Shown: in pieces, positions 18,584 through 48,033 of the stretch | Layout of the letters: every line of letters starts with the position of its first letter | Position numbering within the stretch: the stretch's first letter is position 1 | Virus record (IMG/VR): IMGVR_UViG_3300042691_037989 | Location: 1-57,133 of that record | Direction: 5' to 3' (one strand) | From: a virus | Length of the DNA stretch: 57,133 bases | The notes under the pieces: generated by a model | Told to the model about the DNA's origin: nothing | The model's database searches: none | The model's input: the letters and a program-made list of their open reading frames with translations, nothing else | Position numbers and translations under genes: made by a program

Positions 18584-20446
18584 TTACTTTTCCCACTGCG
18601 AAGATACGTGAGCTTCTGCAGGGACTGTTAAATGATTCAGGAATTTCTGCGACGATTGTAATCCGATCTTCTCAACGAGTTTAGCAATAGTGTTTGCTTT
18701 GTCTTTCTCACATTCTATTACTACCTCATCATGTACGAATAACACCAGATTAAACGGTATTTTTTTAGACTTCTCTCTGAGTTCTATACAAGTGGCTTTT
18801 GCTATGTCAGCAGCGGTAGCTTGGACAGGCAAGTTTTGTGACCATCTTTGTATTTTAGAATCCCAAGTTTTATATGCTGATGCAATAGTAGGATGAGGAT
18901 CCCAACCCATTGCTTTAAAGTAGTTATAATGTTTCTTAGCTTCTAAGTATTCATTATAAAACGGTATATAACTTCTTCTTTTTGATACTTCATTACACAC
19001 AACATATCCTCTTTCCCTTGTGAGATTGCCCATCTCTATAAAGTAAGGATTAAGTTTTGGGAAAGCAGTATAAACTTTATTTAATAGTTCCTTTCCTTTC
19101 TGTAAAGTAACTCCAGCACCTTCTGATACTTTCTTAGCTCCGGCACCAAAAGCAATTGCGAAGTTAATAGTCTTTGCTAACTGTCTTTCTTCAGATCCTT
19201 TAGTTAGATTAGGATTGTCAAAAGCTAGTTTAGCAGTCTCTAAATGGTAATCACCATTGTTTATAAAGATGTTAATAAAGTTCTCGTCATTAGACTTATC
19301 AGCAAGTATCCTTGCTTCTATATTAGAGAAGTCTGCACCTACAAAGGTGTTACCTTCTTCAGCTTGAAATGCTGATCGGTATATAGATCCTCGTTTTATA
19401 TTCTGGCAATTAGGGTTAGTAGAAGAAGTTCTTCCAGTTCTCATAATTTGCATATAAGAAGAGTGAACTCTTTGAGAAGTTGGGTTGACGTGCCTTAAAA
19501 ACTTTTCACCATAGGTAGATGATTCCTTTTGGGAAAGCTTATAGTCAAGATAAGTCTTCAGAATACCAGCCTTAGCTGTTTGCTTCTTTAAGACTTCACG
19601 AGATACAGACTCCTTTATCTCACCTGTTTTCTTGTCTATAATCGACACGTCAACACCAAGCTCTTTGAGTACAGGTAAAACCTGTTTGTGGGAGTTTCAG
19701 TTTAGTTGTTGATACTCCTCCAGTTTCTTTCGCAATTCTTCGGTTTGTTGTAGTGTGTTGCGATAATTCTCTAACCACTGTTTTTGGTTGAGATATACAC
19801 CACTCAATTCCATATCAGCAAGAACTTTCACGAAGTTGAACTCTAGCTCTGCTGTTGACTCAAGCTCATTTTTCTCAAGCTGAATCTTCTGTTTCTCATA
19901 CAAGAGATATGCAACCGAAACGTCAAGAGCTCCATAATAGAGCTGCTCTAACTCAAACGGTTTATCTCCTATACTAGAAAAAGAACTCCTTATCTTTTTG
20001 GTAACTGCTGGAATAAATAAGTTACCTTGATTGGAGTAGTAATGATACCCTGTGTAGCGTCTAGCGGTTTGCTCTAGGGTAAAATGTCCCTTCTCCTCAT
20101 CCATCCCACACTCCAGTATTTGTGCTGCAAGCATGGTATCGAATAGATCTTCAAGCTCAATCCCATAGTTAGTCTTTATAACTTGGTAGTCGAACTTAAT
20201 ATTATGACCTATGATCTTTTTCTTGGATAATTCTTTGAGGAGTTTAGTGGGGTCCGCTTTCCTTGTGTCTATAATGTACTGAACTTCTTTGTTACCAAAC
20301 TGCAGCATGACAATTCTTCTATCAAAGATATTATCAAAATCTCCAGTTACCTCTGTATCTAAAGCTATTATGTCTCAGGACTTGATCTCTTTGGTGAGTT
20401 CTTTACCTGACGTAGGTTGTATCTGTCCGTGTTGGACTCGAAACAT
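18584..20446 (-). CDS. Family A DNA polymerase with 3'-5' exonuclease, recoded
   Basis: 620 aa. The exonuclease domain begins DIIALDTEVTGDF (DxE) with IIGHNIKFDYQV. Polymerase motifs: A GADFSNIEARILA, B RQLAKTINFAIAFGAG, C LFVHDEVVIEC. Two TGA codons (20375-20377 before the DxE motif and 19697-19699 in LN-TGA-NSHKQV) are read as Trp, the second at a place where phage Pol A proteins carry an aromatic or small residue. With TGA as stop the exonuclease and polymerase would be separate fragments. It is the main phage replicase. Confidence 0.92.
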
Positions 20447-20648
20447 AGATTGTTGTATATCCATTGATAGTGCGCTTAAACCTTACGTTATTAAACTCCG
20501 TAGGTTCTACTTTTGTTTCTGGTTTAGTGTTAAAGATATTAGATTGAGGGAAAAGATGAGCCGCTTTGTTTAACACCACGGGCTCCAGATAGTGCTTAAA
20601 CAACGAACCTGCGATCGTTGATAAGAGGACAAAAAAGATAGCTTCCAT
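20403..20648 (-). CDS. Small membrane protein (81 aa)
   Basis: An N-terminal membrane segment (AIFFVLLSTIAGSLF) is followed by a polar tail. No family is recognised. It overlaps the polymerase start by 44 nt and follows a terminator, so it probably heads the polymerase transcript. Confidence 0.6.
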   Translation of the reverse strand: MEAIFFVLLSTIAGSLFKHYLEPVVLNKAAHLFPQSNIFNTKPETKVEPTEFNNVRFKRTINGYTTIYVSSPTRTDTTYVR

Positions 20649-24337: not shown

Positions 24338-24364
24338 AGAGGGGCATCTTTTACGACACCCCTC
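24338..24364 (-). terminator. Terminator after the membrane AAA+ gene
   Basis: AGAGGGG and CCCCTCT form a 7-bp stem between 24338 and 24364; the minus strand continues AACTTTT. Confidence 0.7.
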
Positions 24365-24387
24365 TTGGTTTGGAGAAATACAGGTTT

Positions 24388-25779
24388 CTACAGTATTGTT
24401 TCTGTCAACTTCTTTGCCCGGCCAAATGCTGCGATTGTAGCGATCGTCATGCCTTCTGAATACACAAAAGGAGCCCAGACTTTATCCGGGTAGGTTCCCT
24501 TGAAGTATTCATACAGCGATTTGGCTTCTTCTTCCTTCGTGAAGGGCAGGGTCTGGATGATTTCTTCTATCCTTCCCACTCGAGTAAAGCTTTCGTCGAA
24601 GTCTTCAGGAACATTGTTGGTACAAAATACCATTGACACCCTCTCCATCTGATCGGAGCCGCTCAGGAAGTTCTTGAGTATTGCCATCACTTCTGTGGAC
24701 AGAGGGTAGAACTCATCCACAAAGATAACCAGCGACTTTTCTGAGGCTGTGAGCATCTCTACAGATTTGAGAAATCCACTTGTCTTGAGGTGCTGCAGAT
24801 CGCTGCCGGAAAGAAGCGCTACACATACTCCTTGAGACGAACATTCATGCATCAAAGCGCGCATGAGTGTTGATTTGCCGGTGCCCTTTCCGCCGTACAG
24901 TAGTAAGTTTGCTGCATCTTCTTTCCAGAATTCTACCAGTTTTGGTACGAGCTGAACAGGATTGTAGCTTCTTGCCTCTCGACCAACCAACTTACCTTGA
25001 TACGCCAGCTTGAGGAATTCCGGTGGAATTGTGTTTATCTTTTGCGTAGAAGCGGTTAAACCTCCGTAGTCGTTCAGGCGAAAAGGATTCATGACGTTGT
25101 TCGCCTTAGGCCTTTGCAGAGTGATCTTAGTGAGATTGTTCGTGAGAGACCTGGTTTGCGAGAGCAGATCAAATTGGCAATCAGCGTCGCATTCTTTCTT
25201 CGCGTAGTAAAGCACGGATGTTACTATCGGAAGGGTATCATCCAGCATATACGGCATATACTCTGTCTCCAGATTAGCCACATAAGCTTTCGACGCGTAA
25301 TTTATTCCGATACGTAGATAAAACTCCTCCACCCGTTCGTTGATGACTTTGTAGAGCAGGACATACCAGAACGAATTGTTGTCGTAAGAGGTGGGATCAC
25401 CATCGACACGATACACGTACTGGATTTCATACTCAAACTCTCGGTACTTGTCCAAAAGCTGTAGCAACGGAACACTCGTGACATATTTACTCAGATCAAT
25501 ACTGGTAAACATTTCTTGATTTCCGTTAGAGAGCCCTCTGATAGCATCTGGAATTTCCTTCATCTTGCTGGCAGAATTAGAAATCGAATCAATGATACCA
25601 GCGATTGTCGGTAATTGCCGATTGATGTTGGAGGCGACTTTCTGGACATTGTCCTTGATTTCCTCCATTACCGCTTGATTTTGTTGAATCACGTCATCTT
25701 CCCTCATGTAGTTTTTGTAGCCTACATAGAAAAGTCCGATGAGCGGGGCTGCGAGTAGCAGTAAGAACAGTAATAACAT
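24388..25779 (-). CDS. Membrane-anchored AAA+ ATPase (463 aa)
   Basis: An N-terminal membrane segment (LLLFLLLLAAPLIGLFYVGY) is followed by a coiled region (~30-110), a mixed domain, then an AAA+ module: Walker A GGKGTGKST, Walker B LVIFVDEFYPL, sensor 1 VFCTNNVPEDFD, arginine finger region RVGRIEEI and a lid. It resembles BCS1/FtsH-type membrane AAA proteins without a protease domain. GC-rich codons, no TGA in frame. It is flanked by the structured RNA at 25.8 kb and a terminator, so it is likely transcribed alone. Confidence 0.75.
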   Translation of the reverse strand: MLLLFLLLLAAPLIGLFYVGYKNYMREDDVIQQNQAVMEEIKDNVQKVASNINRQLPTIAGIIDSISNSASKMKEIPDAIRGLSNGNQEMFTSIDLSKYVTSVPLLQLLDKYREFEYEIQYVYRVDGDPTSYDNNSFWYVLLYKVINERVEEFYLRIGINYASKAYVANLETEYMPYMLDDTLPIVTSVLYYAKKECDADCQFDLLSQTRSLTNNLTKITLQRPKANNVMNPFRLNDYGGLTASTQKINTIPPEFLKLAYQGKLVGREARSYNPVQLVPKLVEFWKEDAANLLLYGGKGTGKSTLMRALMHECSSQGVCVALLSGSDLQHLKTSGFLKSVEMLTASEKSLVIFVDEFYPLSTEVMAILKNFLSGSDQMERVSMVFCTNNVPEDFDESFTRVGRIEEIIQTLPFTKEEEAKSLYEYFKGTYPDKVWAPFVYSEGMTIATIAAFGRAKKLTETIL

Positions 25780-25798
25780 TTTTGAGTTGTTTTAAGTT

Positions 25799-25945
25799 TT
25801 AAAAAACCAAGAGGCGGCCTTGTGGAGTGGGTACCTCACACCTGACTACTTAGGGTACTAGATTCCACAGGAAGAGGTATGACCCCAACCAAGAAACCAT
25901 TCCCCCCTTCGCGCGGGCTTCAGAAGGCTCCTAGACCGCCCCAAG
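25799..25945 (-). ncRNA. Pseudoknotted structured RNA with its own terminator tail
   Basis: On the minus strand the outer stem CC-TT-GGGGCGG (25935-25945) pairs with CCGCCTC-TT-GG (25806-25816) and runs into TTTTTT. Inside, GGGT/ACCTC (25873-25884, 3-nt bulge) pairs with GAGGTACCC (25828-25836), and TGTGGA (25863-25868) pairs with TCCACA (25820-25825). The order a-b-a'-b' is a pseudoknot of 9 and 6 bp. CCTTC/GAAGG forms a further hairpin. It could be a leader of the AAA+ gene or a separate small RNA. Known class: none recognised. Confidence 0.6.
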
Positions 25946-25988
25946 GAAAATTCCCAATTAGCACAAAGTATCGAGATAGTGGGAATTT

Positions 25989-26588
25989 CTACCAAGATAC
26001 CGATTTTTTTAACTTCTCCATGTGAAAGCGCACTCTTTGTGTGTACTCCTCATCTTCGGCATACCTAGAGTTAGGGCCAAAAGGTAAGTTGTTTAGTAAC
26101 CACAAATACTGCTCTTCCGTTTCGATTTTCAAACCACGTTTTGAGGCAAGATGCAGAATACAACGTTGATAAGCGCCGTAATCTAATATTGACTCTTTCA
26201 CATCACTGTAAGCAGCATGACCGTTTTTTTCTTTAAGCGCATAACCTCTTTGGGAGACTTTCATACCAAAACAGTTTTTATTCTGCTTAAATATGTTGCT
26301 ATTAAAGTTGTCAGTCTCATGAACTGCTTGTGCCAGTACTACCCACTTGAACTTTATGTTCGCGTCGTCAATCGCGTTTTTTACCTTTTGGAGCGTTATC
26401 GGCTCTAGAGGTTTGTCGACGCTTAGTGAGTCTTTCGATTTCTCTGGTGAGTACACCAATGTCTCGCTTCTGCTTACCACTCTCCCTAATAAGTTCTTTA
26501 CTAGCTGCGACACTAGCTCGAACTCTTTTTCGGGTAGGAGAAGGATTACGAGAAAACTGAATACCACCAGTTTCAGTGCGTATTGCAT
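25989..26588 (-). CDS. Membrane-anchored glucosaminidase-like lysin (GH73-type)
   Basis: 199 aa. Signal-anchor LKLVVFSFLVILLLP, a linker, then VVLAQAVHETDNFNSNIFKQNKNCFGMK, the catalytic-Glu region of GH73-type glucosaminidases (AQ-x-x-x-E-T...S...N-x-FG), and HAAYSDVKESILDYGAYQ (the 'YxxxxxSIxDY' box). It should cut glycan strands from the periplasmic side. It begins inside the preceding gene (221-nt overlap). Confidence 0.75.
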   Translation of the reverse strand: MQYALKLVVFSFLVILLLPEKEFELVSQLVKNLLGRVVSRSETLVYSPEKSKDSLSVDKPLEPITLQKVKNAIDDANIKFKWVVLAQAVHETDNFNSNIFKQNKNCFGMKVSQRGYALKEKNGHAAYSDVKESILDYGAYQRCILHLASKRGLKIETEEQYLWLLNNLPFGPNSRYAEDEEYTQRVRFHMEKLKKSVSW

Positions 26589-26928
26589 CCTTGATTCTTT
26601 TTGCGACGTCTGATATGCCGCGTTGAATTCTCATAAGAGCGAGTCCATAAGTATGCATCTCTTCATAAAAGAGTCTGCATATTATTATGATACTGCCCGA
26701 ACGTCTGCCGTCGTACTTATTCAGGTCAAATCGAAGCAAGTCTGTTGGGTAATGACAGAATAGTTTGATATTCTGCCTCAAATCCGCCTCTAGCTTGACT
26801 TTTTGCTGCGAATTCAGGGCGGATAATTGCGCTTTGTTCAACCTGATTTCCAGAGAAATTTCTATTCTCGACGGGAAGAGTTCAATCAACATCATTCCGC
26901 CTTTAACGGGTGTGTATGATCTGATCAT
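26368..26928 (-). CDS. Hypothetical protein (186 aa)
   Basis: No family is recognised. The N-terminal half has strands and helices (IEISLEIRLNKAQLSALN); the C-terminal third is very basic (RKRVRASVAASKELIRES, ERLTKRRQTSRADN) and overlaps the lysin gene. It ends at TGA; reading it as Trp would cross two more TGAs before TAA, so TGA is probably a stop here. Its ATG overlaps the upstream TGA as ATGA. Confidence 0.5.
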   Translation of the reverse strand: MIRSYTPVKGGMMLIELFPSRIEISLEIRLNKAQLSALNSQQKVKLEADLRQNIKLFCHYPTDLLRFDLNKYDGRRSGSIIIICRLFYEEMHTYGLALMRIQRGISDVAKRIKDAIRTETGGIQFSRNPSPTRKRVRASVAASKELIRESGKQKRDIGVLTREIERLTKRRQTSRADNAPKGKKRD

Positions 26929-27581
26929 AACCTGATTTCATTTACCCCGAACAGATCTTCGAGTTGGTTGGCGATAAAGTAGTTGAAGCCATTCTCCATC
27001 CTCGGAAGTATGATAGCTCTGTTTGTACCCTGCCCATAGGAGACATCTTTCACTTCAGAATCGTGCGTGTCTTTGAGTTTCTGGATAAGGTCGGCCATCC
27101 TGAGAGGGATTGGAGCGCTTCTGGGATTCATCAGTTTTCCTCTTTCGTCAATAACCAGACGTACTTTCTGGCTCTCGATGAGAACGTACAGCATATTCTC
27201 TTTTCCGCCAGACGAAATAGGTACACCAGCCAGGTATGCTCTGGGATGGACCTGTATATCATTGGCGAAAATGAACTGCCCGTCTTTGTTCTGGGTTATT
27301 TGACCCGTGAGACAGATGTTCTCGTGTATGGTAAAATTGGGGTATTCGGACATTTCTTCTTTTATCGCGCTTGCTTGCTGACCGATGACAATTCTTTGGA
27401 TCTGGTCAAGAAATACATTCGCAAACTCCGGGCGTTCTATTGGGCGCTTCTCAGGCACAAGCTTTAGTTTCGCTTGAGGAACCTGATTTTTTGATAGCGT
27501 CAAAAGAGCCGCACTGGGTACGTAATACTTTTGACCGTTTATCATTACCGGTGGATATTCGATAGAAGGAAGGTGAACCAT
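26925..27581 (-). CDS. Hypothetical protein (218 aa)
   Basis: No family is recognised. It begins PPVMINGQKYYVPSAALL and holds strand-rich segments (QFIFANDIQVHPRAYLAGV, NMLYVLIESQKVRLVID). GC-rich codons. It follows a terminator, so it heads a small operon with the basic protein and the lysin. The stop TGA overlaps the next ATG as ATGA. Confidence 0.6.
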   Translation of the reverse strand: MVHLPSIEYPPVMINGQKYYVPSAALLTLSKNQVPQAKLKLVPEKRPIERPEFANVFLDQIQRIVIGQQASAIKEEMSEYPNFTIHENICLTGQITQNKDGQFIFANDIQVHPRAYLAGVPISSGGKENMLYVLIESQKVRLVIDERGKLMNPRSAPIPLRMADLIQKLKDTHDSEVKDVSYGQGTNRAIILPRMENGFNYFIANQLEDLFGVNEIRL

Positions 27582-27597
27582 GGTGTTAGAAAATTGT

Positions 27598-27619
27598 GGG
27601 GGAGAGTTTCCCCTCCCCC
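27598..27619 (-). terminator. Terminator upstream of the 218-aa gene
   Basis: GGGGGAG and CTCCCCC pair around a short loop (27598-27619) between the stop at 27663 and the next start; the minus strand continues ACAATTTT. Confidence 0.75.
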
Positions 27620-27662
27620 TAGTTAGAAAATTGTTTAGGAACTTGCCGGACTTGGGCTGAAG

Positions 27663-28706
27663 TTACAGCTGAGTGGTCTCAGCGATTTCAGCATCCACTG
27701 TTGTTTCACGAGGATCAACGGTCATTGCTTGAAGAGCGTTGACGGTGGCTTCGAGAAGGTCGTTTTTCAAGTTATCGGCTTCTGCTGCCAGATCTCTTGC
27801 TGCAGTACTGATCTTGCCGACCTTAGTAAGAGTATCGGCAAGGGTATTTGCAGGGAAGCTGACGTGGCCGGGAGCAACAGTTGCAGATACTTGCAGGGAA
27901 TCAGCAGCAGCGTCATTCACAGGCAGCGGCATTTGTTCGATTTCCTCCACTTCGGATACGGGTACTTCTACTTCGGTGGTTGCCGAAATGGCACCTTCTG
28001 CAATCCGATCGTTCAGGACTTCCACGACTTCAGCGGGATCAACAGGTACATCCTGCTGAACCTCCATGTTGAGGTTCAGACCCATCACGCCAATAGCGAC
28101 ATCGTCTTGAGACTTGGCGTTGAGCATGGTGATCACCTCATCCAGTTCTGTCTGGAGCGCAGGGAAAGTTGGTGTGCCGGTAACATTGAGTTGGACGAGC
28201 TTCTCGAGGATCTGCGCCTCTTGGACAGCGCGGATGTTGTTGCCGAAGTTCTCACCGTCACGGTTCTTCAGCGCGGTGATGATCTCCTTTTCTCGAGGAG
28301 TTTGCTCATCCTCCGGCGTAAGAATCGCCAAGACGATCTCATCAGGGGTGATAGTTGTAGTTGCGCCGAGTCCAAAGTCAGCGTCAGTCATTGTTGGGAT
28401 AATGCCATTGATAAATGCCATTTCTGAAAGAAAGTTTTGGTGTGAAGAAAAGAATATTTTTCCTCCGGGTACATTGTTGTACCTTTTAGCGCACTGATTG
28501 TCCGCTAAACACATATAAACGTAATCGTACTTACATTTAAAGTGCTCGGAAAAGATGTTTGTAGCTGGGATTAGAGAAAAGAGTTTGTTTTTGGGTTTAG
28601 AATGAGTTAAAACTATTAGAGTTCCATCCCGAATTCTGAATCCGGGCCTGGGTTTATCTTCGGGATTAAATGCCCCGAAATAGGTATGTAGATCAATAAT
28701 CATCAT
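27663..28706 (-). CDS. Two-part acidic protein (347 aa)
   Basis: No family is recognised. The first ~95 residues (MMIIDLHTYFGAFN...GGKIFFSSHQNFLSE) are AT-rich, with Cys and aromatics. From MAFINGIIPTM (~28420) onward the sequence is GC-rich, Ala/Glu/Val-rich and acidic with helices (AARDLAAEADNLKNDLLE). The abrupt change at an in-frame ATG suggests a fusion of two genes or a second internal start. It overlaps the VWA gene stop by 14 nt and may be a partner of the MoxR/VWA pair. Confidence 0.55.
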   Translation of the reverse strand: MMIIDLHTYFGAFNPEDKPRPGFRIRDGTLIVLTHSKPKNKLFSLIPATNIFSEHFKCKYDYVYMCLADNQCAKRYNNVPGGKIFFSSHQNFLSEMAFINGIIPTMTDADFGLGATTTITPDEIVLAILTPEDEQTPREKEIITALKNRDGENFGNNIRAVQEAQILEKLVQLNVTGTPTFPALQTELDEVITMLNAKSQDDVAIGVMGLNLNMEVQQDVPVDPAEVVEVLNDRIAEGAISATTEVEVPVSEVEEIEQMPLPVNDAAADSLQVSATVAPGHVSFPANTLADTLTKVGKISTAARDLAAEADNLKNDLLEATVNALQAMTVDPRETTVDAEIAETTQL

Positions 28707-29847
28707 CTTCGTCTGGATCCAGTACATCAACAGTAATGTACTCACCACCGCTGCTCTCACAAAGAGATTTAAGGTCATAGTTTGCTAGACCTAAGCAGTA
28801 GCAGTGAATAGTCACTGGCATTTTTCTTGGGGACACGTAATCTTGACCATCGTTGATTATTAAAACGTTAGTCTCTGGAGATAGGGTAATGCCATCAACC
28901 ACGCCTGATTTTATGGAGGAACTTAACTCACTTAGAATTGAATCCAAATCAGTAGTACCACCACAACCAGTTCTAAAGGCATCTTTAAAGAACTCGACTG
29001 ACTTAGAGTCGTGCACTTCAAATAAAGTATCCCGAGTCTCCTCGAACGGTGCAACCAACAAACGTACGTTTCCTTTAAGGACTTCGTCGAACATTGCATT
29101 CAAAATGCTAAGCACTTTTTCAACAACATAAGCGACTGACATTGAGCCTGAGTCGTCTATAAGGACGATTAGGTCTCTCTTGCATTTACTTATTTTCATC
29201 GGAAGCTTTACTCTAAGCGTCTTGTCGATCAAATTTAAGAAAAATAGATCGTCCTCTAACGCAAAGTCTTCGTCAGTTATATAGTCAATGTCTTTATCTT
29301 TTTTATACTTTCGCTTTTTATACTTTACTTTAGGCTTGCCTTCTATAAGATCACTATTTACAGAACCCTTAATAAAATCAAGGAACTTAAAGTTATCCAC
29401 GATTTTGGGGATATCTGAAAAATAGCTTTTAGGTCTACCTACATTAGCTCTGTTGCCTTCAAAGAATCTGCCAAGAGGAGCTCCACCGGATTTTCCACCC
29501 GGATTGTCTTCGCCCTCTTGCTTATCAAATCCATCTATTTCTTCAGAGACTTTATTAGATTTCATTTTTACTTTATGCTGATTAGCGGTATTAGAAGCAA
29601 TATATTTAAGAGCAAATTTCGCTTTCTTATCAAAAGTCATGCCATTGTTTTTAAGCATTGGCAGTAAGTCAGCGAGAATTTCTTTGCTTTTTTTGTTCCC
29701 TTCAAACTTGGTTATAGCTTTTTTGGGATTCTCGAAAACTAAATGGCTCATTACGTCCAAAAAGTTATCGAATTCTTCCTTTTGAAAATGGTCTATATTG
29801 TACTTATTATATAAATCAGCAGCATTTCCACTAAAGGATGGGTGCAT
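28693..29847 (-). CDS. VWA-domain protein, partner of the MoxR-like ATPase
   Basis: 384 aa. The N-terminal half is helical with a flexible Gly-rich stretch; the C-terminal half is a von Willebrand A domain with a complete MIDAS: LIDDSGSMS (DxSxS), GCGGTTDLDS (Thr) and IINDGQDY (Asp). This arrangement resembles CoxE/ViaA-like cochaperones that work with MoxR ATPases. It ends at TGA just inside the next gene; reading on adds 9 residues to a TAA. Confidence 0.8.
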   Translation of the reverse strand: MHPSFSGNAADLYNKYNIDHFQKEEFDNFLDVMSHLVFENPKKAITKFEGNKKSKEILADLLPMLKNNGMTFDKKAKFALKYIASNTANQHKVKMKSNKVSEEIDGFDKQEGEDNPGGKSGGAPLGRFFEGNRANVGRPKSYFSDIPKIVDNFKFLDFIKGSVNSDLIEGKPKVKYKKRKYKKDKDIDYITDEDFALEDDLFFLNLIDKTLRVKLPMKISKCKRDLIVLIDDSGSMSVAYVVEKVLSILNAMFDEVLKGNVRLLVAPFEETRDTLFEVHDSKSVEFFKDAFRTGCGGTTDLDSILSELSSSIKSGVVDGITLSPETNVLIINDGQDYVSPRKMPVTIHCYCLGLANYDLKSLCESSGGEYITVDVLDPDEDDDY

Positions 29848-30868
29848 TTGGGAGAGTTGTTAACTTTTGGGTGAGTCTTTGGGAGATCTGGGATAATCTT
29901 TCGCTTGCCAACTCGAGTTGATTTGTGTACTCGCCGGTAAACGGAACGTCTCTGATAGTGGTTAGCAGCACGTTTGCGGTATTGAATTTCTGGATGGCCT
30001 GCATGCAATCGCTTTGCGTTCTCATTGTGCGCTCCATACTCTCTGCTTCAGACAGATTTGTGAGTATCTTTTGCAGAGTTTCCAGATACGGCATCATTTT
30101 CTCCATCTCGACGAATTTAGCGTGGAGATCTGAAGAGATACCGTTGAAGTTCTTCAGATATGCTGAGTTTCCAAGCTCTTTATAGGCTTGGTAAAATCGT
30201 ACAGCGCTACGAGGTGACATAAAGCCAGTAGAATTCACGAAAGCAGCAAATGTAGATACCAGCTTTGCTTGAGCATCAGCTATGCCCATAGAAGCAAACA
30301 TTCTATCGAATGACTCTGCTTCGTAGTTATTCCATTCGGACTTAACTACGTAGTGAAAGCGGTCTATAAAAGCTTTTTGTGAATCTGTCTTTGCCCACAC
30401 GTGTGGGTCTACATTGGTGCAGATAAACAAGCTTTCCATTCTGGATGGTACACACGTAAATCCGTTACAGTATTGTTTACGCGTAAGGGGATCGCGCATA
30501 CCGGGAGGAAAATCTTCTGGAAGGTCAAGGCCCTCCTCGAGAACGACTATTTTGAAATTATACATGATATTATTTGTTATGTAGGTCTTTATGCCTGTCT
30601 CTCTGTACGCCTTAGCGTCTGCGTAACCAATAAAATGGTCACTAGAAGACTCTGATGAACAGGCGTGAAGGAAAACTTCTGTATGATAGAATTCCTCACC
30701 TTTGAGTATTTTTATTGCCTCTTCTATTAGACCTGATTTAGCGTGACCGCCAAGACCGTATAGAATACAGTTCTTGTGGTTAACCAAAGACACAGAAACA
30801 GCTTCAACTGTCTCCGGTACATTTGGGTAACGCTCTATAAGAGCACTGATTAGTTCGTCTACTGACAT
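29831..30868 (-). CDS. MoxR-family AAA+ ATPase
   Basis: 345 aa. Walker A is GLGGHAKSG (G-x-x-G-x-A-K-S), Walker B FKIVVLEEGLDLP, sensor 1 SLFICTNVDPHV and an arginine-finger region AFIDRFHYVV, followed by a helical lid. The lysine-serine P-loop and the following VWA gene (17-nt overlap) are typical of MoxR/VWA chaperone pairs such as RavA-ViaA. The substrate in a phage is unknown. Confidence 0.78.
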   Translation of the reverse strand: MSVDELISALIERYPNVPETVEAVSVSLVNHKNCILYGLGGHAKSGLIEEAIKILKGEEFYHTEVFLHACSSESSSDHFIGYADAKAYRETGIKTYITNNIMYNFKIVVLEEGLDLPEDFPPGMRDPLTRKQYCNGFTCVPSRMESLFICTNVDPHVWAKTDSQKAFIDRFHYVVKSEWNNYEAESFDRMFASMGIADAQAKLVSTFAAFVNSTGFMSPRSAVRFYQAYKELGNSAYLKNFNGISSDLHAKFVEMEKMMPYLETLQKILTNLSEAESMERTMRTQSDCMQAIQKFNTANVLLTTIRDVPFTGEYTNQLELASERLSQISQRLTQKLTTLPNAPIL

Positions 30869-30883
30869 TTTTTGATTTTATAA

Positions 30884-30902
30884 GGGGGGAATAAATCCCC
30901 CC
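30884..30902 (-). terminator. Terminator directly after a TGA stop
   Basis: GGGGGG (30884-30889) pairs with CCCCCC (30897-30902), starting 6 nt after the TGA of the lysin gene; the minus strand continues TTATAAAATC. Its position supports TGA as a true stop there. Confidence 0.75.
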
Positions 30903-30908
30903 GTGAAC

Positions 30909-31733
30909 TCAATATTGATCCAAGTTGTGCTTCTCTATAATAGAGATGAGGGTTTGAGCATAATGAGGCGCTGTAGCATAACGGCAACGCTTCAACCCAT
31001 AAGCCCATTTTTTGTAATCGTTTCCGTGCTTCTTTAGAGACCCGTATCTTTTGCCAGATAGAAGTTCAGCGTAAGCAGTAAACGCAGCTTGGGCGGTTTG
31101 ATACCGGTAGAATCTGTCGTTTTTGTGATCATCTGGATGTTGTATGCAGTGACCTTTCTGACATCTTTTTCCAAAACATTTCATCGCAAAATAGTTGTGG
31201 AATTGCGACAGTTTGTTTGTTCCGGATCCAGATTCCAAAAGCGCTTGCCCTACAGAAATAGCTATGGGAATACCATAATCTTCTTGAATTTTCTTTGCAA
31301 AAGGCAGAGCGTATTTGATGAATGCAGCCGGTCTTGCTTGTTTTGGGAGTAACAAAAAATTCGGCTTACCGGCAGAAAAGACCTCTATTGTTCTTTTTAT
31401 AACCTTAGGAGGTTTTTTATAAACAATGCGGCCTTTTTCGGCAGGTTTGAGCTTTCTGCTGACAGATGCTTCTGCCCTTGGAATTGTTTTGGGCTCCACA
31501 ACTTCTTCCTGAACAGGGATTACAGATTCCACAAGTGGAGGAACTGTTTTTTCCAGAGAATCCAGTGCTTCAGCTGGAATTTCGGTGTTCTCTTTTGATT
31601 TGGGTTCTGTCCGCATAATGAGGACTGCCAGAGTTATAACCATGCAAAATGCTATGGCGCTGCTGGCTGATGTTTTAGGTTCTTTCGTAACCGTTTTTTG
31701 CACCACAGGGGGTTGCCATTTTTGTATTGACAT
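30909..31733 (-). CDS. Second membrane-anchored glucosaminidase (GH73-type)
   Basis: 274 aa. A membrane segment (SSAIAFCMVITLAVLIM) is followed by a long Pro/Glu/Lys linker (~45-120) that could span the periplasm, then FIKYALPFAKKIQEDYGIP, VGQALLESGSGTNKLSQF and NYFAMKCF, the FlgJ/GH73 catalytic pattern, and FYRYQTAQAAFTAYAELL. Four cysteines in the loop may form disulfides. It ends with TGA directly before a terminator hairpin; the standard code fits. Confidence 0.82.
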   Translation of the reverse strand: MSIQKWQPPVVQKTVTKEPKTSASSAIAFCMVITLAVLIMRTEPKSKENTEIPAEALDSLEKTVPPLVESVIPVQEEVVEPKTIPRAEASVSRKLKPAEKGRIVYKKPPKVIKRTIEVFSAGKPNFLLLPKQARPAAFIKYALPFAKKIQEDYGIPIAISVGQALLESGSGTNKLSQFHNYFAMKCFGKRCQKGHCIQHPDDHKNDRFYRYQTAQAAFTAYAELLSGKRYGSLKKHGNDYKKWAYGLKRCRYATAPHYAQTLISIIEKHNLDQY

Positions 31734-31759
31734 ACGGCGAGTTTTTTATTGGTGAAATT

Positions 31760-31828
31760 AAAAAGCCCACTACTACTAAAACCCAATACAGGAACGGTAC
31801 TGTATTGTAGGGGAGAAATAGTGTGGGC
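31760..31828 (-). terminator. Long terminator hairpin
   Basis: On the minus strand GCCCAC pairs with GTGGGC, with an inner 8-bp stem CAATACAG/CTGTATTG, followed by TTTTTAATTT. It lies after the TAG at 31835. Confidence 0.8.
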
Positions 31829-31834
31829 AACAAC

Positions 31835-32140
31835 CTAATTTTCATCGGGCTGTTTACCGTTCTTGGACCATGTGTTTTGCGCTCTTTCGCGCATTTTCTT
31901 GAGTTCTTGATACTCGTCAAAGAGAATTTTGAACTGTTCATAGGCGTTCGGGTAGTCGCGTTCGGGGAGCTCAAGTAGTGAAAGAACTTTGTCTCTTACC
32001 CGTTGCATTGCATCGGTAAACGTCGGTTCCGGAAGAGCTTTGCTTTTCTTTGATAGCATTGCTGATATGAGTATCGCAATTACTACCGCGCCGATAGAAA
32101 GAATCATGAATTCTTCCTCAGTGAGATTTATTTCTTGCAT
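31835..32140 (-). CDS. Small membrane protein with a coiled tail (101 aa)
   Basis: One membrane segment (MILSIGAVVIAILISAML) then a charged helical domain (FTDAMQRVRDKVLSLLEL, ILFDEYQELKKMRERAQ). It overlaps the upstream 53-aa gene by 13 nt. A role in lysis (spanin- or holin-like) is possible given the adjacent lysin, but this is only inference. Confidence 0.6.
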   Translation of the reverse strand: MQEINLTEEEFMILSIGAVVIAILISAMLSKKSKALPEPTFTDAMQRVRDKVLSLLELPERDYPNAYEQFKILFDEYQELKKMRERAQNTWSKNGKQPDEN

Positions 32141-32289
32141 CTTCTTAGAATTTTGTTAAAGACGTGAGAAAATACGTGCTGGTAGTTACTGTAAAGTACA
32201 ATTACAAACCAAGCAATTCCAACTGCAGTCACTATAGCATCTGCGTAGATAGCAAAGTACTGCTCTTTAGTTATGGAAATTTTATCCAT
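32128..32289 (-). CDS. Very small membrane protein (53 aa)
   Basis: ATG 32289 to TAA: a short polar start, one membrane segment (DAIVTAVGIAWFVIVLYS) and a basic tail (KILRRCKK), giving a topology like small holins. It overlaps the next gene. It lies back to back with the rightward promoter at 32326. Confidence 0.55.
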   Translation of the reverse strand: MDKISITKEQYFAIYADAIVTAVGIAWFVIVLYSNYQHVFSHVFNKILRRCKK

Positions 32290-32325
32290 TGGCTTAGAAT
32301 TTTGTTAAAAAAGTTGACAAAAAAC

Positions 32326-32356
32326 TTGCTTTTTGTATTTTAATTTTGTATCTTTG
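32326..32356 (+). promoter_or_regulatory. Bacteroidota-type promoter for the first structured RNA
   Basis: TTG (32326-32328), 20 nt, then TATCTTTG (32349-32356), matching the Bacteroidota primary-sigma consensus. No coding gene follows on this strand. Confidence 0.75.
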
Positions 32357-36187: not shown

Positions 36188-36436
36188 TTAGATGTGAAGA
36201 ATTTCGTTTTTATAAGGTTTAAGCCTTTTTAGAATACGGCCGTTGTTGAATATGACATTGCTTGGGATTTCTCCGTAACAGTCATACACAGTGGCGTAAT
36301 ACCCTAAATGTAAGGCTTGTACTACTACTGAACAAGCAGCACCAATATACTTATACGTTTTAAAGTAGCTTCCACCTTTAGGGTCGCTTATAAACGCAGT
36401 ATACTGTGCCACCATTTGTTTTCTCTTTCTTTTCAT
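36188..36436 (-). CDS. Hypothetical protein (82 aa)
   Basis: No family is recognised. Starts MKRKRKQMVAQYTAFISD, followed by KYIGAACSVVVQALHLGYYATVYD, a small alpha/beta pattern. Confidence 0.55.
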   Translation of the reverse strand: MKRKRKQMVAQYTAFISDPKGGSYFKTYKYIGAACSVVVQALHLGYYATVYDCYGEIPSNVIFNNGRILKRLKPYKNEILHI

Positions 36437-36466
36437 GAGATAGAGATATTTTGTAAGGGTTAAAAT

Positions 36467-36490
36467 AAGGGCAACATTTCTGCCGCCCTT
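36467..36490 (-). terminator. Terminator downstream of the 103-aa gene
   Basis: AAGGGC (36467-36472) and GCCCTT (36485-36490) pair around GGCAGAAATGTT; ATTTTAA follows on the minus strand. Confidence 0.75.
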
Positions 36491-36579
36491 ACAATCTAAA
36501 TCAACCCTTCAATTAGAAATTTGTGTTTTTCTTTTGATACAGTCCACTTAAGGAGTACTACATACGTACAGTCGCTACG

Positions 36580-36891
36580 TCATCCACCAAATACGTCTTC
36601 GGGAGGAGTTGTTTTTCTTTTCCGAAGGTCAATGCATACCACGAAATCCTCCTTTTTCGAGGATATGCCTACAATCTTAAGGGTAAGATAACCCTTTGCA
36701 GATTGTGAAAAAGAGACAACCTTGAAGTACACACCGTCCATCTGCCAAAGGGTGGGATGGAGTTCCACAGCTTGAGTAATTGGGTTACCCAAGGGGTCCA
36801 GATTATTTGTGGGGAGTTCCACAAAGTCTGGAGAAAGAAGCTGAACAAAAACTGGTTTCTTGGTGTTGTTAAACTTCAGAACGTTAACCAT
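36580..36891 (-). CDS. Hypothetical protein (103 aa, or 131 aa if TGA is Trp)
   Basis: No family is recognised. Beta-rich (KKPVFVQLLSPDFVELP, GYLTLKIVGISSKKEDFVVC). It stops at TGA 36580, but the frame goes on with protein-like sequence (RSDCTYVVLLKW) to TAG at 36496, only a few bases before the terminator. This is the one place in 22-39 kb where a sense TGA remains plausible. Confidence 0.55.
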   Translation of the reverse strand: MVNVLKFNNTKKPVFVQLLSPDFVELPTNNLDPLGNPITQAVELHPTLWQMDGVYFKVVSFSQSAKGYLTLKIVGISSKKEDFVVCIDLRKRKTTPPEDVFGG

Positions 36892-36997
36892 TTTTTTAGG
36901 TTTAAACAGTGAACAATGATTGAGGTTGAGCTACCATGCCCTCCGTGTATTTAGGAATTTATTTAATCTCGTTTCCAAGGAACATATACGAGAAAAT

Positions 36998-37018
36998 GGG
37001 GGAGAATAGATCTCCCCC
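36998..37018 (-). terminator. Terminator after the 79-aa gene
   Basis: GGGGGAG and CTCCCCC pair, followed on the minus strand by CATTTTCTC. Confidence 0.75.
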
Positions 37019-37579: not shown

Positions 37580-37644
37580 ATTTAGAGAAAAAATAGTTGG
37601 ACAGTACAAACTGCCCTTACACCTGTTCATTCAGGTTAATTCCT

Positions 37645-37983
37645 TCAACCCCTGTCTGAGGTCATCTCCAGCCAATGTGCTGGAATCCTGTCTTTGCTGT
37701 TTCGTTTTCTTCCGAAGATATTGTAATCCCGTTCAATACGGGAAGCAATCCTTGGTGAAACACGTCTTTTTTTCCTCTTTTCGGGGATTACTCCCCATCG
37801 TCTCAAACACTGGTAAAAGATGTAGTTTACACTTCCATCATGGAAATGCATTTCTACTCCGTTTACTTCCCAGATTTCCATTGGTTGGAAACCGTCTTCT
37901 TTAGGGGTATACCCTTTGAAGATCATGGTTACTGGAATTCGTACGCCTGTTTTTTTGTTTGATATGGTGAATGTCTTTACCAT
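37645..37983 (-). CDS. Hypothetical basic protein (112 aa)
   Basis: No family is recognised. N-terminal strands (KTFTISNKKTGVRIPVTMIF), then a very basic middle (PEKRKKRRVSPRIASRIE), which may bind nucleic acid. It ends at TGA; read as Trp only two more residues precede TAA. Confidence 0.55.
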   Translation of the reverse strand: MVKTFTISNKKTGVRIPVTMIFKGYTPKEDGFQPMEIWEVNGVEMHFHDGSVNYIFYQCLRRWGVIPEKRKKRRVSPRIASRIERDYNIFGRKRNSKDRIPAHWLEMTSDRG

Positions 37984-42351: not shown

Positions 42352-42597
42352 GGGGGCGCCTGGTATTGATTTGGTATATAGTGCTTACATTAACTGTGAT
42401 GAAGGTCGTCTACGCCTTAAGTAGATAACAATAAATGACAACTCTTACGCAGATGCACTTATAGTGCCGGAGAACTCTACCAGCTACGTTTCTCAAGAGG
42501 TAGAAATTTTAGAATTAGTTTACGCTTAAATTAAATCACACTTAAAGGTTAATGAAAAGTAATACTGAAGACGCGGGTTCGACTCCCGCCGCCTCCA
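42352..42597 (+). ncRNA. ssrA: Phage-encoded tmRNA (246 nt)
   Basis: The acceptor stem GGGGGCG (42352-42358) pairs with CGCCTCC (42590-42596), including the G3-U pair typical of tmRNA; the T arm is GCGGG-TTCGACT-CCCGC. The long P2-type helix is CATTAAC-TGTGAT (42388-42400) with ATCACA (42535-42540) and GTTAATG (42548-42554). PK1 is AAGG/CCTT plus loop TCTA with TAGA (42422-42425). The tag frame starts about 9 nt after PK1: NDNSYADAL... to ...EILELVYA, 31 codons, then TAA (42527). CCA is not encoded. It is shorter than bacterial tmRNA, so later pseudoknots are reduced. It releases stalled ribosomes and tags the product. Confidence 0.88.
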
Positions 42598-43265
42598 CAA
42601 ATAAAGTTGAACTTATAGGTTACTATGGTTCAGATGAAGTAATAGCTCTTTCTGCATGGACGTCTACATCTAGAGATTTAACCCCAGAAAAGAAAGAACG
42701 TATCCCCGCTTTAATTAAACAGCTTTGGGATGCACACCCAGTTCCACATGGATCTCCGTTTGAAAAGGGAATTGTTCATTTCCTAGTTACTACGGATATT
42801 GCTTCACATATACATTTATTAAAGCATAGAATATCCTCTATTAATGCTGAGTCAGCTAGATATAAAGAACTTAAAGAAGATAAATACTATCTACCAGAAG
42901 ATTGGAAGGGTATTAAGTCTAAAAGATTCCATAAAGATCTTCTCTCTATATTAGAGGAGTATACAAAACTTGGGAATGTTTATTATCATGAAGCTGTTAA
43001 AGAACTTACACCAGTTCTTGGTAGAAAAAGAGCTAAAGAAACAGCTAGATTTTTTAAGACTTATAATTCTCAGATAACAGCGGATGTTATGTTTAATATG
43101 CGGTCATTTCATAATTTTATTAATCAAAGGATGGATGATCACGCTCAAAAAGAGATAAGAGAAATTGCTAGAGAAATGCTCTCCATAGTCTATAATTTAG
43201 AAGGTGCTCCTTTTAAAGCTACATTAGAAGCATGGGGATTTGATAAACCTGAACTTATTGGGTAG
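42552..43265 (+). CDS. thyX: Flavin-dependent thymidylate synthase ThyX
   Basis: Homology starts at KVELIGYYGSDEVIALSAW and includes GIVHFLVTTDIASHIHLLKH and KHRISSINAESARY, the ThyX motif RHRxxSxNxxSxRY with Lys for the first Arg. It makes dTMP from dUMP with FAD and methylene-folate. The only in-frame ATG (42552, with AAAGG 4 nt upstream) lies inside the tmRNA 3' part, adding 16 residues encoded by tmRNA sequence; otherwise the start is non-ATG near 42603. Confidence 0.85.
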   Translation: MKSNTEDAGSTPAASTNKVELIGYYGSDEVIALSAWTSTSRDLTPEKKERIPALIKQLWDAHPVPHGSPFEKGIVHFLVTTDIASHIHLLKHRISSINAESARYKELKEDKYYLPEDWKGIKSKRFHKDLLSILEEYTKLGNVYYHEAVKELTPVLGRKRAKETARFFKTYNSQITADVMFNMRSFHNFINQRMDDHAQKEIREIAREMLSIVYNLEGAPFKATLEAWGFDKPELIG

Positions 43266-43423: not shown

Positions 43424-43516
43424 GGGGGCTACAGTAGCTGGGTACTAACCGATCTTCAAAATCGCTGAACACGCCCTTCCAAAAGGCGTGCGGGGGTTCG
43501 ATTCCCTCAGCCCTTG
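43424..43516 (+). tRNA. tRNA with anticodon UCA and a long variable arm
   Basis: Acceptor GGGGGCT/AGCCCTT (7 bp; an 8th pair C43423-G43516 is possible), D arm AGTA/TACT, anticodon arm CGAT-CTTCAAA-ATCG with anticodon TCA, variable arm CACGCC/GGCGTG, T arm GGGGG-TTCGATT-CCCTC. G follows as discriminator; CCA is not encoded. It can read TGA. The long variable arm is typical of Ser, Leu or Sec tRNAs, not Trp, so the amino acid is uncertain. Confidence 0.82.
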
Positions 43517-43531
43517 CTAAAACTTAATTTT

Positions 43532-44206: not shown

Positions 44207-45803
44207 ACAAGTTACGTTTAAAGAAGAAACAAGAGAAAAATTACTTAAAGGTGTAGAAAAAATTTCTAATGCTGTTGGGTCTACATTAGGACCAATGGGT
44301 AAGAATGTAATAATCGAAACTCCCTATGGAGCAACTACTGTAACTAAAGATGGTGTAACAGTTGCTAAACATATAGCTTTAGAAGACCCAGTTGAGAACT
44401 TAGCTGTGGATATTCTTAAGCAAGCTGCTGCTAAAACTGCTTCTACTGCTGGAGATGGCACTACTACCTCAACTGTTATTGCTTCGGCTTTAGTACAAGA
44501 GGCATTTAAACTTATTTCTGTTGGTTATCAGCCCATAGAAATTAAAAGAGTCTTTGAGACTTTAAAACACCAGACTATTGTACAGCTTAATAAGTTATCT
44601 ACTGGAGAACTTAAGCCACAAGATATTTATGATGTGGCTACTATATCTGCTAATAATGATTCTGACATTGGTGTCCTCATTCTTTCTGCTTATGAGTATG
44701 TTGGTACAGATGGTTTAGTGTCTATGGGAGAATCTAAGACAGGTAATACTTATCTTGAGGCTGTACCTGGAGTATCTATATCTAAAGGTTATGCTTCCCC
44801 TTATTTTATTACAGATTCCGCTAAAGGAGAAGCAGTTTTAGAAAACCCCCTTATATTTATTACTGATAATAAGCTTAGACACACAGATGAAGTAATCCCA
44901 ATTTTGGAGTATGCAGCATCTCGTAGAAAGCCGCTCCTTATTATTGCTGATGCTATTGATGGTCAAGCTCTACAGCTCCTTATAATTAATAAGTTACAAC
45001 AAAGAATATCCGTAGTTGCTGTAGAAGCTCCTTCTTATGGAGAAAATAGAGCGGAACTGCTTCAAGATCTTGCAGCTATAACCTCTTCTAATATATTTAC
45101 AACAACAGATGCCTCTAGAGCAACCCTTGATGTTTCCCCTATTAATTTTGGTTCTGCAGAAAAGGTAGTTATCTCTAAAGATAAGACTGTATTTATTAAT
45201 CCAGATAAAAACGCTGATAAGGTTGACCAAAGAGTTCAGTTAATAAACTCTAAAATGCTCCAAGATTCTGATAATCCTTATCTTTTACAACAGTATCAGA
45301 AAAGACTTGCGGATCTTAAAGCTAAAGTAGCAATTATTAATGTTGGGGCTGCTACAGAAACAGAATTAAAAGAGAAAAAAGATAGGGTAGAAGATGCTCT
45401 TAAAGCTATTGCAGCAACAATTGTTGAAGGTTATCTCCCCGGAGGTGGTACTGCACTTCTTTATGCTTCATCTAAGATAACTACTGATGATCCTATAACA
45501 AAAGCATACGTTAATGCTATAAAAGAGCCACTTAGACGTATAGTTTTTAATGCGGGTAAGAGTCCAGATATGGTACTTGCTACATTAGAGGCATCTACGG
45601 ACACTAGTTTTGGATTCGATGCTAAAAGCTTTGAGTATAAAGATTTAAAAGCAGCTGGTATTATTGATCCAACTATGGTAGTTACACAAGCAGTTAAGAA
45701 TGCTGTTTCTGCAGCTAATATGATAATTCTTTCTGACACTGCGATGGTTAATGTAGATAGGACGCCCCCATATACTCCACCATCACCAGACTATGTTCAA
45801 TAA
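44193..45803 (+). CDS. groEL: GroEL chaperonin
   Basis: 536 aa, nearly full host length. Hallmarks: STLGPMGKNVIIE, KDGVTVAKHIAL, TAGDGTTTSTVIA (nucleotide-binding GDGTT), ISANNDSDIG, the apical domain (YASPYFITD, LLIIADAIDGQALQLLIINK), INVGAATETELKEKKDRVED, VEGYLPGGGTALLYA and AAGIIDPTMVVTQAVKNAVS. The C-terminal GGM tail is replaced by PPYTPPSPDYVQ. With the GroES-like gene upstream it gives a complete chaperonin, likely for folding phage capsid proteins. AT-rich codons match the phage, so it is not a recent host copy. Confidence 0.95.
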   Translation: MTPTKQVTFKEETREKLLKGVEKISNAVGSTLGPMGKNVIIETPYGATTVTKDGVTVAKHIALEDPVENLAVDILKQAAAKTASTAGDGTTTSTVIASALVQEAFKLISVGYQPIEIKRVFETLKHQTIVQLNKLSTGELKPQDIYDVATISANNDSDIGVLILSAYEYVGTDGLVSMGESKTGNTYLEAVPGVSISKGYASPYFITDSAKGEAVLENPLIFITDNKLRHTDEVIPILEYAASRRKPLLIIADAIDGQALQLLIINKLQQRISVVAVEAPSYGENRAELLQDLAAITSSNIFTTTDASRATLDVSPINFGSAEKVVISKDKTVFINPDKNADKVDQRVQLINSKMLQDSDNPYLLQQYQKRLADLKAKVAIINVGAATETELKEKKDRVEDALKAIAATIVEGYLPGGGTALLYASSKITTDDPITKAYVNAIKEPLRRIVFNAGKSPDMVLATLEASTDTSFGFDAKSFEYKDLKAAGIIDPTMVVTQAVKNAVSAANMIILSDTAMVNVDRTPPYTPPSPDYVQ

Positions 45804-48033
45804 CAGAGACTTTATAATAAAAGAAGTCCCTGAGTATCATCCTCTATCAATAGATTATAAAACATTTTGACGCGAACAGAAACGGCGTTGTATCGAAGGT
45901 TACTGGGCTGGCGGGACATTTGTTCCCCCAGCCCTTTACTATTATATAAACTTCCATACAATAAGGCTAAATAAATCTATTCACTCATCTGTAAAGTCTT
46001 TTGGTAGACCTTGACTCAGGGATGTAGAATATAACTTTTTTAATTATTACACTGAAGCCCGTGGATTCTCTGGCTTTAAAGACGATGATGAATACTCCTC
46101 TCATAGAATACTTTTAACAGATATAGATGATGATACCTTATTAAAGTATTATCCAAATACTATATCCTCCACAGGTTCTCGTAAAACTTACATTCCCGCG
46201 CGAAAGGCTTTATTCCAAACCTATGATTATCCCTTAGGTGCTCCTTTGTTTGAGAATAATCTACAGAATTTTATGCTACTTGGATCTCGAGAGTCTGGTA
46301 AGTCTTATCAGGTATCAGGACTTATAGCACACAACTATCTTTTTGATGGAGCTACTTATTATAATGAAGAAAGTATAAAGTACCCCTCCCCAGCTGAGAT
46401 ATTAGTTGGTGCTGAAAAGTCAGATAAATCAGCAGATCTACTTAAAAAAACAAGGGATGCATTTGATTGGCTTCCCGGTAAAATATCTACTTTTGACAGG
46501 ACCTATCCAGCTCCTTTTTCTAAAAGATTCAGGGGGTCTTGGGATGTTAATAAAGAGATAGTTGCTGAGTATAAAAAACGTGAGAATGGAGCTTGGATAA
46601 TTGCGGGATCTAAGTCATCTATTAAGCATAGATCTTTTTCTGCTAACCCATTTGCAGCTCAAGGTACTCGACCTCTTCTTTTAGTATTAGAAGAGATAGG
46701 TATGTTCTCTAACTTAAAACAGGTTTACACAAATACGGTGGATAACCTTCGTAACGGTCTTAGGAAAACAGGTATGCTTATGATGATTGGTACTGGTGGT
46801 GATATGGAGAAAGGAACTATTGATGCTGCTGAGATGTTTTATGAACCTAATAGATATGATATCTTAACGTTTGAAGATATATGGGAGCATAGGGGTCAAA
46901 TAGGATACTTTCTCCCAGCTTATCAAGTTCTTAATGAGTATAAAGATGAGAACTGAGTTACAAATGAAGAGGCAGCTAAAAAAGCTCTCTTAACAGTTCG
47001 TAAACAAAAGGCTGGAGATTCAGGCGGTTCCGAAGCTTTAAATAAAGAGCTTCAATATCGTCCAATAGTTCCTTCAGAAATGTTCTTAACCAAGACTGCT
47101 AATATATTCCCAACAGCAGAACTTAGAAGACGTCTTTCAGAAGTGCAATCTCAAAAGATGGAGGATTACTCTAATAAAGTGACTCTGTTTTTTGATCCCG
47201 CCGCTAAAGTTTATAATGGAGTTAATTACGAAATAAATACTAAACTAACTGCTATAACAAGATTTCCTTACGAAGGAGATGATGTAGAAGGAGCGGTTAT
47301 GATATACGAATTCCCAAAACTAGTAGATGATCATGTTCCAGAAGGAGCTTATATAATAGGTTGTGACCCTTATAAAGATGATACTTCAACTGGTGGATCT
47401 TTAGCTGCCGTCTATGTTATGAAGACTAACAAGTATCCTTCCACTGTTGGATATTCAGAAATAGTTGCTACATATATAGGTAGACCTTACCTAGGTAAAA
47501 ATCAAGTTAATGAGACGTTATACAAACTCTCCTTGTTTTATGGTAATGCTAAAATATACTTTGAGAATAACGTAGGTAACGTAAAAGATTACTTTGATAA
47601 AATACGCCGTCTAGATCTTTTGGCTAGACAACCAGTTACTATTTTTAATAAAAAAGCTTCTTATGATACAGGGCCCCAGATTATTTATGGTTACCCCTTA
47701 TCAAACGATAAAGTTAAATGAGAAGCACTTCAATATGTTCGTTCTTTCCTCTTAGAAGAAAGAGGAGATAATAGACGCAATTTAGATGTAATACCCGATA
47801 TAGGATTATTACAAGAATTAATCTCTTATAACCTCGATGGCAACTTTGATAGGGTATCTTCGTTAATAGGATGTGTTTTAGGTCTAGAAGAAATATCCAA
47901 TCTTAGTCGCAAAAAATCCATAACCGATAAGGAGCTTTCTCAATTTGAGAAGGACTTTGATAGGTTATTTGTAAACAACACCAGACTATTCAATGTACAA
48001 CTTCCCAAAACAACGCCTTCCTTATTCACGTAA
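45793..48033 (+). CDS. terL: Terminase large subunit, recoded
   Basis: 746 aa with four sense TGA codons (26, 74, 388, 643). ATPase: LLGSRESGKSY (Walker A), PLLLVLEEIGMF (Walker B); nuclease: YIIGCDPYKDDTSTGGSL and later Asp/Asn-rich IYFENNVGN. The N-terminal TF-W-REQKRRCIEGYWAGG and FGRP-W-LRDVEYNFF fit crass-like TerL, which I recall having Trp or another aromatic there. Under the standard code the gene would be in five pieces. It packages DNA with the portal, whose gene overlaps its end by 41 nt. Confidence 0.93.

Follow-up and report, generated by a model that had tools for sequence, protein, structure and literature searches.

Locus and phage genome

The window analysed here is a 57-kb IMG/VR contig (57,133 nt) in which a spacer of 209 nt separates two minus-strand genes, one for an endolysin and one for a membrane AAA+ protein. 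The endolysin gene (25989-26588) lies directly upstream and its product matches phrog_21890 endolysin (4.4e-11) and Pfam Glucosaminidase (1.6e-10), and the AAA+ gene (24388-25779) lies directly downstream, with a product that matches Pfam AAA (1.4e-13) and has a hydrophobic N-terminus. The spacer holds a predicted structured RNA of ~143 nt on the minus strand, running from 25945 to 25803, and the start codon of the AAA+ gene is 21 nt past its U-tract. Upstream of this RNA, and directly after the endolysin stop codon, lies a hairpin termed P0 (AUUCCCA/UGGGAAU, 25950-25986, minus strand). The preliminary description had placed the RNA before a membrane AAA+ gene, which is correct, and between two transcription units, which we could not uphold, as the neighbouring genes share one strand and the search between them gave no host-type promoter. 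Before the RNA we found no promoter of the Bacteroidota type (TTG-N17-21-TAnnTTTG), although clear examples (TTG...TATCTTTG) occur elsewhere in the contig at 32326, 39179 and 40222 on the plus strand; related copies are at 45179 and 45478 in a distant syntenic phage (L030/G013).

The window comes from a crAss-like phage, with matches to PHROG families for the portal and the major head protein and with a portal ~27-31% identical to those of crAss-like phages. The same phage is present on two further contigs (~99.97-100% identity where compared), and the coordinates of the contig overlaps with the window suggest a circular genome of ~100 kb. TGA apparently encodes Trp in this phage, a reassignment already on record for Crassvirales (PMC11210395). 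The frame at 45793-48033 (+), directly before the portal gene at the position expected for the terminase, is open over 746 aa only when TGA is read as Trp and has four in-frame TGA codons; in the DNA polymerase (18584-20464, minus strand) one stop aligns with a Trp of the distant phage; and a tRNA with anticodon UCA lies nearby, at 43424-43517 (+), and is kept in the distant phage. Near this tRNA the phage encodes a tmRNA (42352-42598, plus strand) with a 30-aa tag, and the distant phage has the same pair with a different tag. In other spacers of the window phage, terminator-like hairpins lie a short distance ahead of the following ORF, and one of these spacers, directly before an ORF, holds a type-P3 twister ribozyme (Rfam twister-P3, RF03154; 35798-35861, minus strand; 49.8 bits). 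A close relative of the window, described below, also has one, and the Rfam search of the distant phage gave no twister match. Literature searches for noncoding RNAs or ribozymes in crAss-like phages found no such elements.

Predicted stems and database searches

The 5′ and 3′ ends of the RNA are joined by a closing stem, P1, in which GGGGCGGUCU (25933-25942) pairs with AGGCCGCCUC (25811-25820). P1 is 10 bp long including one G-U, and the U-tract (UUUUUU, 25801-25806) starts 4 nt beyond its 3′ strand; the stem and the U-tract proposed earlier were thus found, but the stem had been given as 9 bp and as ending in the U residues. P2 pairs AGGAGCC (25926-25932), which is in the MFE fold and invariant in the close relative, with GGUUUCU (25892-25898) over 7 bp. 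P3 pairs UGUGGA (25864-25869) with UCCACA (25821-25826), both strands being invariant in the close relative. A possible pseudoknot stem of 6 bp, formed by UACCUC (25874-25879) and GAGGUA (25832-25837), crosses P3. Both of the interleaved inner stems that had been described, of 9 and 6 bp, can be recognized here, but the lengths of 9 bp depend on wobbles or bulges; P3 is 6 bp and reaches ~9 bp only if a bulge is allowed. All these strands are given as minus-strand RNA, and the minus strand is favoured because the G-U pairs of P1 would become A-C mismatches on the opposite strand; the predicted folds have -54.1 kcal/mol on the minus strand versus -39.2 kcal/mol on the plus strand.

Taken from the window sequence alone, the evidence for this fold is unremarkable, and both the energy and the pseudoknot are within chance. 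The MFE has z = -0.99, with 33 of 200 shuffles equally stable, and crossing Watson-Crick stems of 6 + 6 bp were present in 31% of 2000 shuffles. A terminal stem of at least 10 bp occurred in 5.6% of the 2000 shuffles, and together with crossing stems in 1.65%. The locus is a G+C-rich spot (54%), and equally stable folds were found in only 12 of 2326 other contig windows and strands. The pseudoknot of the preliminary description is kept as a candidate: crossing stems can form, but they are unproven, being frequent in shuffles, in competition with nested pairings and composed of pairs that do not vary in our alignment (A6).

There is no ORF that plausibly covers the RNA, either under the standard code or with TGA as Trp. 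No family of Rfam 15 reached its gathering score at 25799-25945, and E<=10 gave only unrelated weak matches nearby; Rfam searches of the whole window, of the locus and of the distant phage spacer had no match for the RNA, and DNA searches of INPHARED and PLSDB had no match to it. A strict home-made descriptor of HDV-like folds (nested double pseudoknot P1/P2/P3, fixed spacing) gave 0 hits in the RNA versus 6 in the HDV control, and a short-hairpin scan did not list the RNA. A 17-mer search of a genome collection gave three matches, each of only 17-18 bases and attributed to chance, and the candidate relative L026 was discarded likewise, with just 16 bases in common within unrelated G+C-rich DNA. 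Searches of viral contigs with the AAA+, endolysin and MoxR-like proteins returned near-identical contigs only.

Conservation between relatives

The close relative, contig IMGVR_UViG_3300037189_022865 (L023/L029/G014), was found with a 17-mer from the RNA. Over most of its length it is ~94-99% identical to the window, and in a block of ~24.35-32.3 kb the identity falls to roughly 40-60%. Inside this diverged block, 138 of 143 aligned bases of the RNA are identical, while the AAA+ protein is 36% and the endolysin 65% identical in amino acids, and just 33% of fourfold sites are unchanged in the AAA+ gene and the same fraction in the endolysin gene. The jump in identity coincides with the predicted ends of the RNA, as the loop of P0 upstream is strongly diverged and identity drops directly past the U-tract. 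The near-invariance extends to parts predicted to be unpaired. Where pairs of the tested stems vary, they stay paired: P1 has one GU to GC and one GC to GU change, and P0 has a compensatory double change from A-T to T-A. The pseudoknot pairs are invariant in the alignment, and the other placement of a 2-nt indel would give one A-U to G-U change (UGCCUC in the relative after the 2-nt insertion). This indel breaks the frames, making coding of the locus unlikely. The U-tract is shortened from 6 U in the window to 4 U in the relative. A covariance model (R1) located the RNA exactly once in the window and once in either of the two relatives that have it.

In the distant phage, a spacer of 249 nt lies between the same two genes. 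It has a closing stem of 12 bp (GGCCUCCUCGAC/GUUGAGGGGGCC), a long-range stem matched by 3 of 300 shuffles, followed by UUUAUUUUUUU in the place of the U-tract ~15 nt upstream of the AAA+ start codon. The spacer also contains UUUAGUACUCAAAG, a motif that resembles UCUAGUACCCUAAG. The covariance model has its best score there at the full-length position, at 3.7 bits and E 0.28, which is not significant. With a score of only 3.7 bits we treat this spacer as an architectural analogue whose homology is without proof, and a plain alignment of the two was discarded as untrustworthy. In all three genomes the AAA+ start codon follows at a comparable distance.

The structured minus-strand RNA that was first proposed is thereby supported by the pair-preserving changes in the close relative and by the architecture of the distant one. 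The stems are kept in the former, and the closing stem and U-tract recur in the latter. Covariance, which had been named as a check, comes from changes in P1 and P0 that keep pairing; it is minimal, the comparison comprising effectively one informative relative and one distant analogue, and it lends the pseudoknot no support. Selection on an RNA is favoured by three variable pairs, a noncoding indel and a conserved interval that matches the predicted ends. This falls short of strict proof, because the divergence of the RNA between the window and the close relative (3.5%) is near the 6-9% found at fourfold sites of the unexchanged backbone.

A proposed intercistronic control RNA and its alternatives

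The RNA is probably a control element of unassigned type. Our leading reading, held tentatively, is a genuine noncoding RNA of ~143 nt that acts in cis as an intercistronic leader or terminator-like element for the membrane AAA+ gene; the lack of a host-type promoter before the RNA and its comparable spacing from the AAA+ start codon across three genomes argue for it. The RNA would be made on the minus strand within a transcript running from the endolysin gene into the AAA+ gene, and P1 would occupy the place where other spacers of this phage have a G+C-rich terminator-like hairpin. The folded RNA may delimit the endolysin message and, for the AAA+ gene, control read-through, processing or the access of ribosomes. 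Strong intrinsic termination is less likely, because the U-tract is 4 nt off P1 and is shortened from 6 to 4 in the close relative. The partner may be a ligand or a factor supplied by the host or encoded in the conserved backbone; the AAA+ protein is probably not the partner, since it diverges fast beside a near-invariant RNA.

The preliminary description had left the choice between a regulatory leader and a stand-alone RNA, and the leader appears to fit better. A small RNA with its own promoter, in which P1 and the U-tract form the 3′ end and which acts in trans on RNAs or proteins of the phage or host, would agree with the paired ends followed by U residues, as in many free-standing RNAs, with a primary sequence near-invariant even where predicted unpaired, and with a partner seemingly outside the diverged neighbour genes. 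But the promoter is absent here though clear elsewhere, and the similar spacing to the AAA+ start codon in three genomes suggests action in cis; we consider this reading rather unlikely. Somewhat less credence still, but enough to make it a serious rival, goes to module-junction DNA, that is, swapped gene modules whose spacer stem-loops were left behind or used as recombination homology, with any RNA function secondary (plain terminators). The diverged ~24-38 kb region between the close relative and the window has further conserved islands, which are gene ends and intergenic hairpins (27598-27712, 31744-31873, 36419-36524, 36889-37018 and 37589-37648, minus strand, ~90-95% identity), and the divergence of the islands resembles neutral divergence of the backbone. 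A closing stem with a U-tract also precedes a glucosaminidase gene, at 31734-31834, and the ~8-kb block 24350-32300, with two glucosaminidases, a MoxR-like ATPase, a VWA protein and the AAA+ protein, has the appearance of a region of module exchange or fast evolution. Against the junction reading, identity shifts at the RNA's own predicted ends and not at arbitrary points, the close relative has pair-preserving and compensatory changes, and the distant phage has the same architecture with another sequence. Module exchange and a selected RNA can both hold.

A novel element in the leader of the AAA+ gene, either a small self-cleaving ribozyme or a ligand-binding riboswitch, would suit a compact, possibly pseudoknotted, near-invariant RNA in a genome with a type-P3 twister in the equivalent slot before another ORF, yet Rfam gave no ribozyme or riboswitch match and the HDV-like descriptor was negative, and we hold it to be very improbable. 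Chance folding in a G+C-rich spacer, in keeping with z = -1.0 and with the frequency of crossing stems in shuffles, is largely refuted by the strong conservation and pair-preserving changes in the close relative, and is hardly credible.

The intercistronic RNA we favour can be set beside known systems. T4-type phages have intergenic cassettes of promoter and stem-loop (PeSLs) in spacers between exchanged genes, and the window RNA is alike as a short conserved stem-loop stretch between diverged genes, but it is larger, has a long-range closing stem and has no host-type promoter found in its spacer. The intercistronic RNase III sites of T7 are likewise structured RNAs in a polycistronic phage transcript, directly before a start codon as predicted here; the window RNA differs in having no long regular double helix and instead a branched, possibly pseudoknotted predicted fold. 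Like the twister-P3 ribozyme of the same genome it is compact and intergenic and lies immediately ahead of a same-strand ORF, but the two have no match in sequence or model. As in intrinsic terminators, a G+C-rich stem is followed by U residues, but P1 spans ~110 nt of structured RNA and the U-tract is offset by 4 nt, with only 4 U in the close relative. In its presumed action the RNA comes closest to the intercistronic control RNAs or the stem-loop cassettes of phages, and we claim no membership for it.

It is quite improbable, though conceivable, that the RNA founds a new class, a pseudoknotted phage RNA (a self-cleaving ribozyme or a switch sensing a ligand or host factor) controlling a membrane AAA+ gene in environmental crAss-like phages that recode TGA. 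A near-invariant spacer RNA beside genes diverged to saturation would point either to an important partner in trans or to an unrecognized joint for module exchange.
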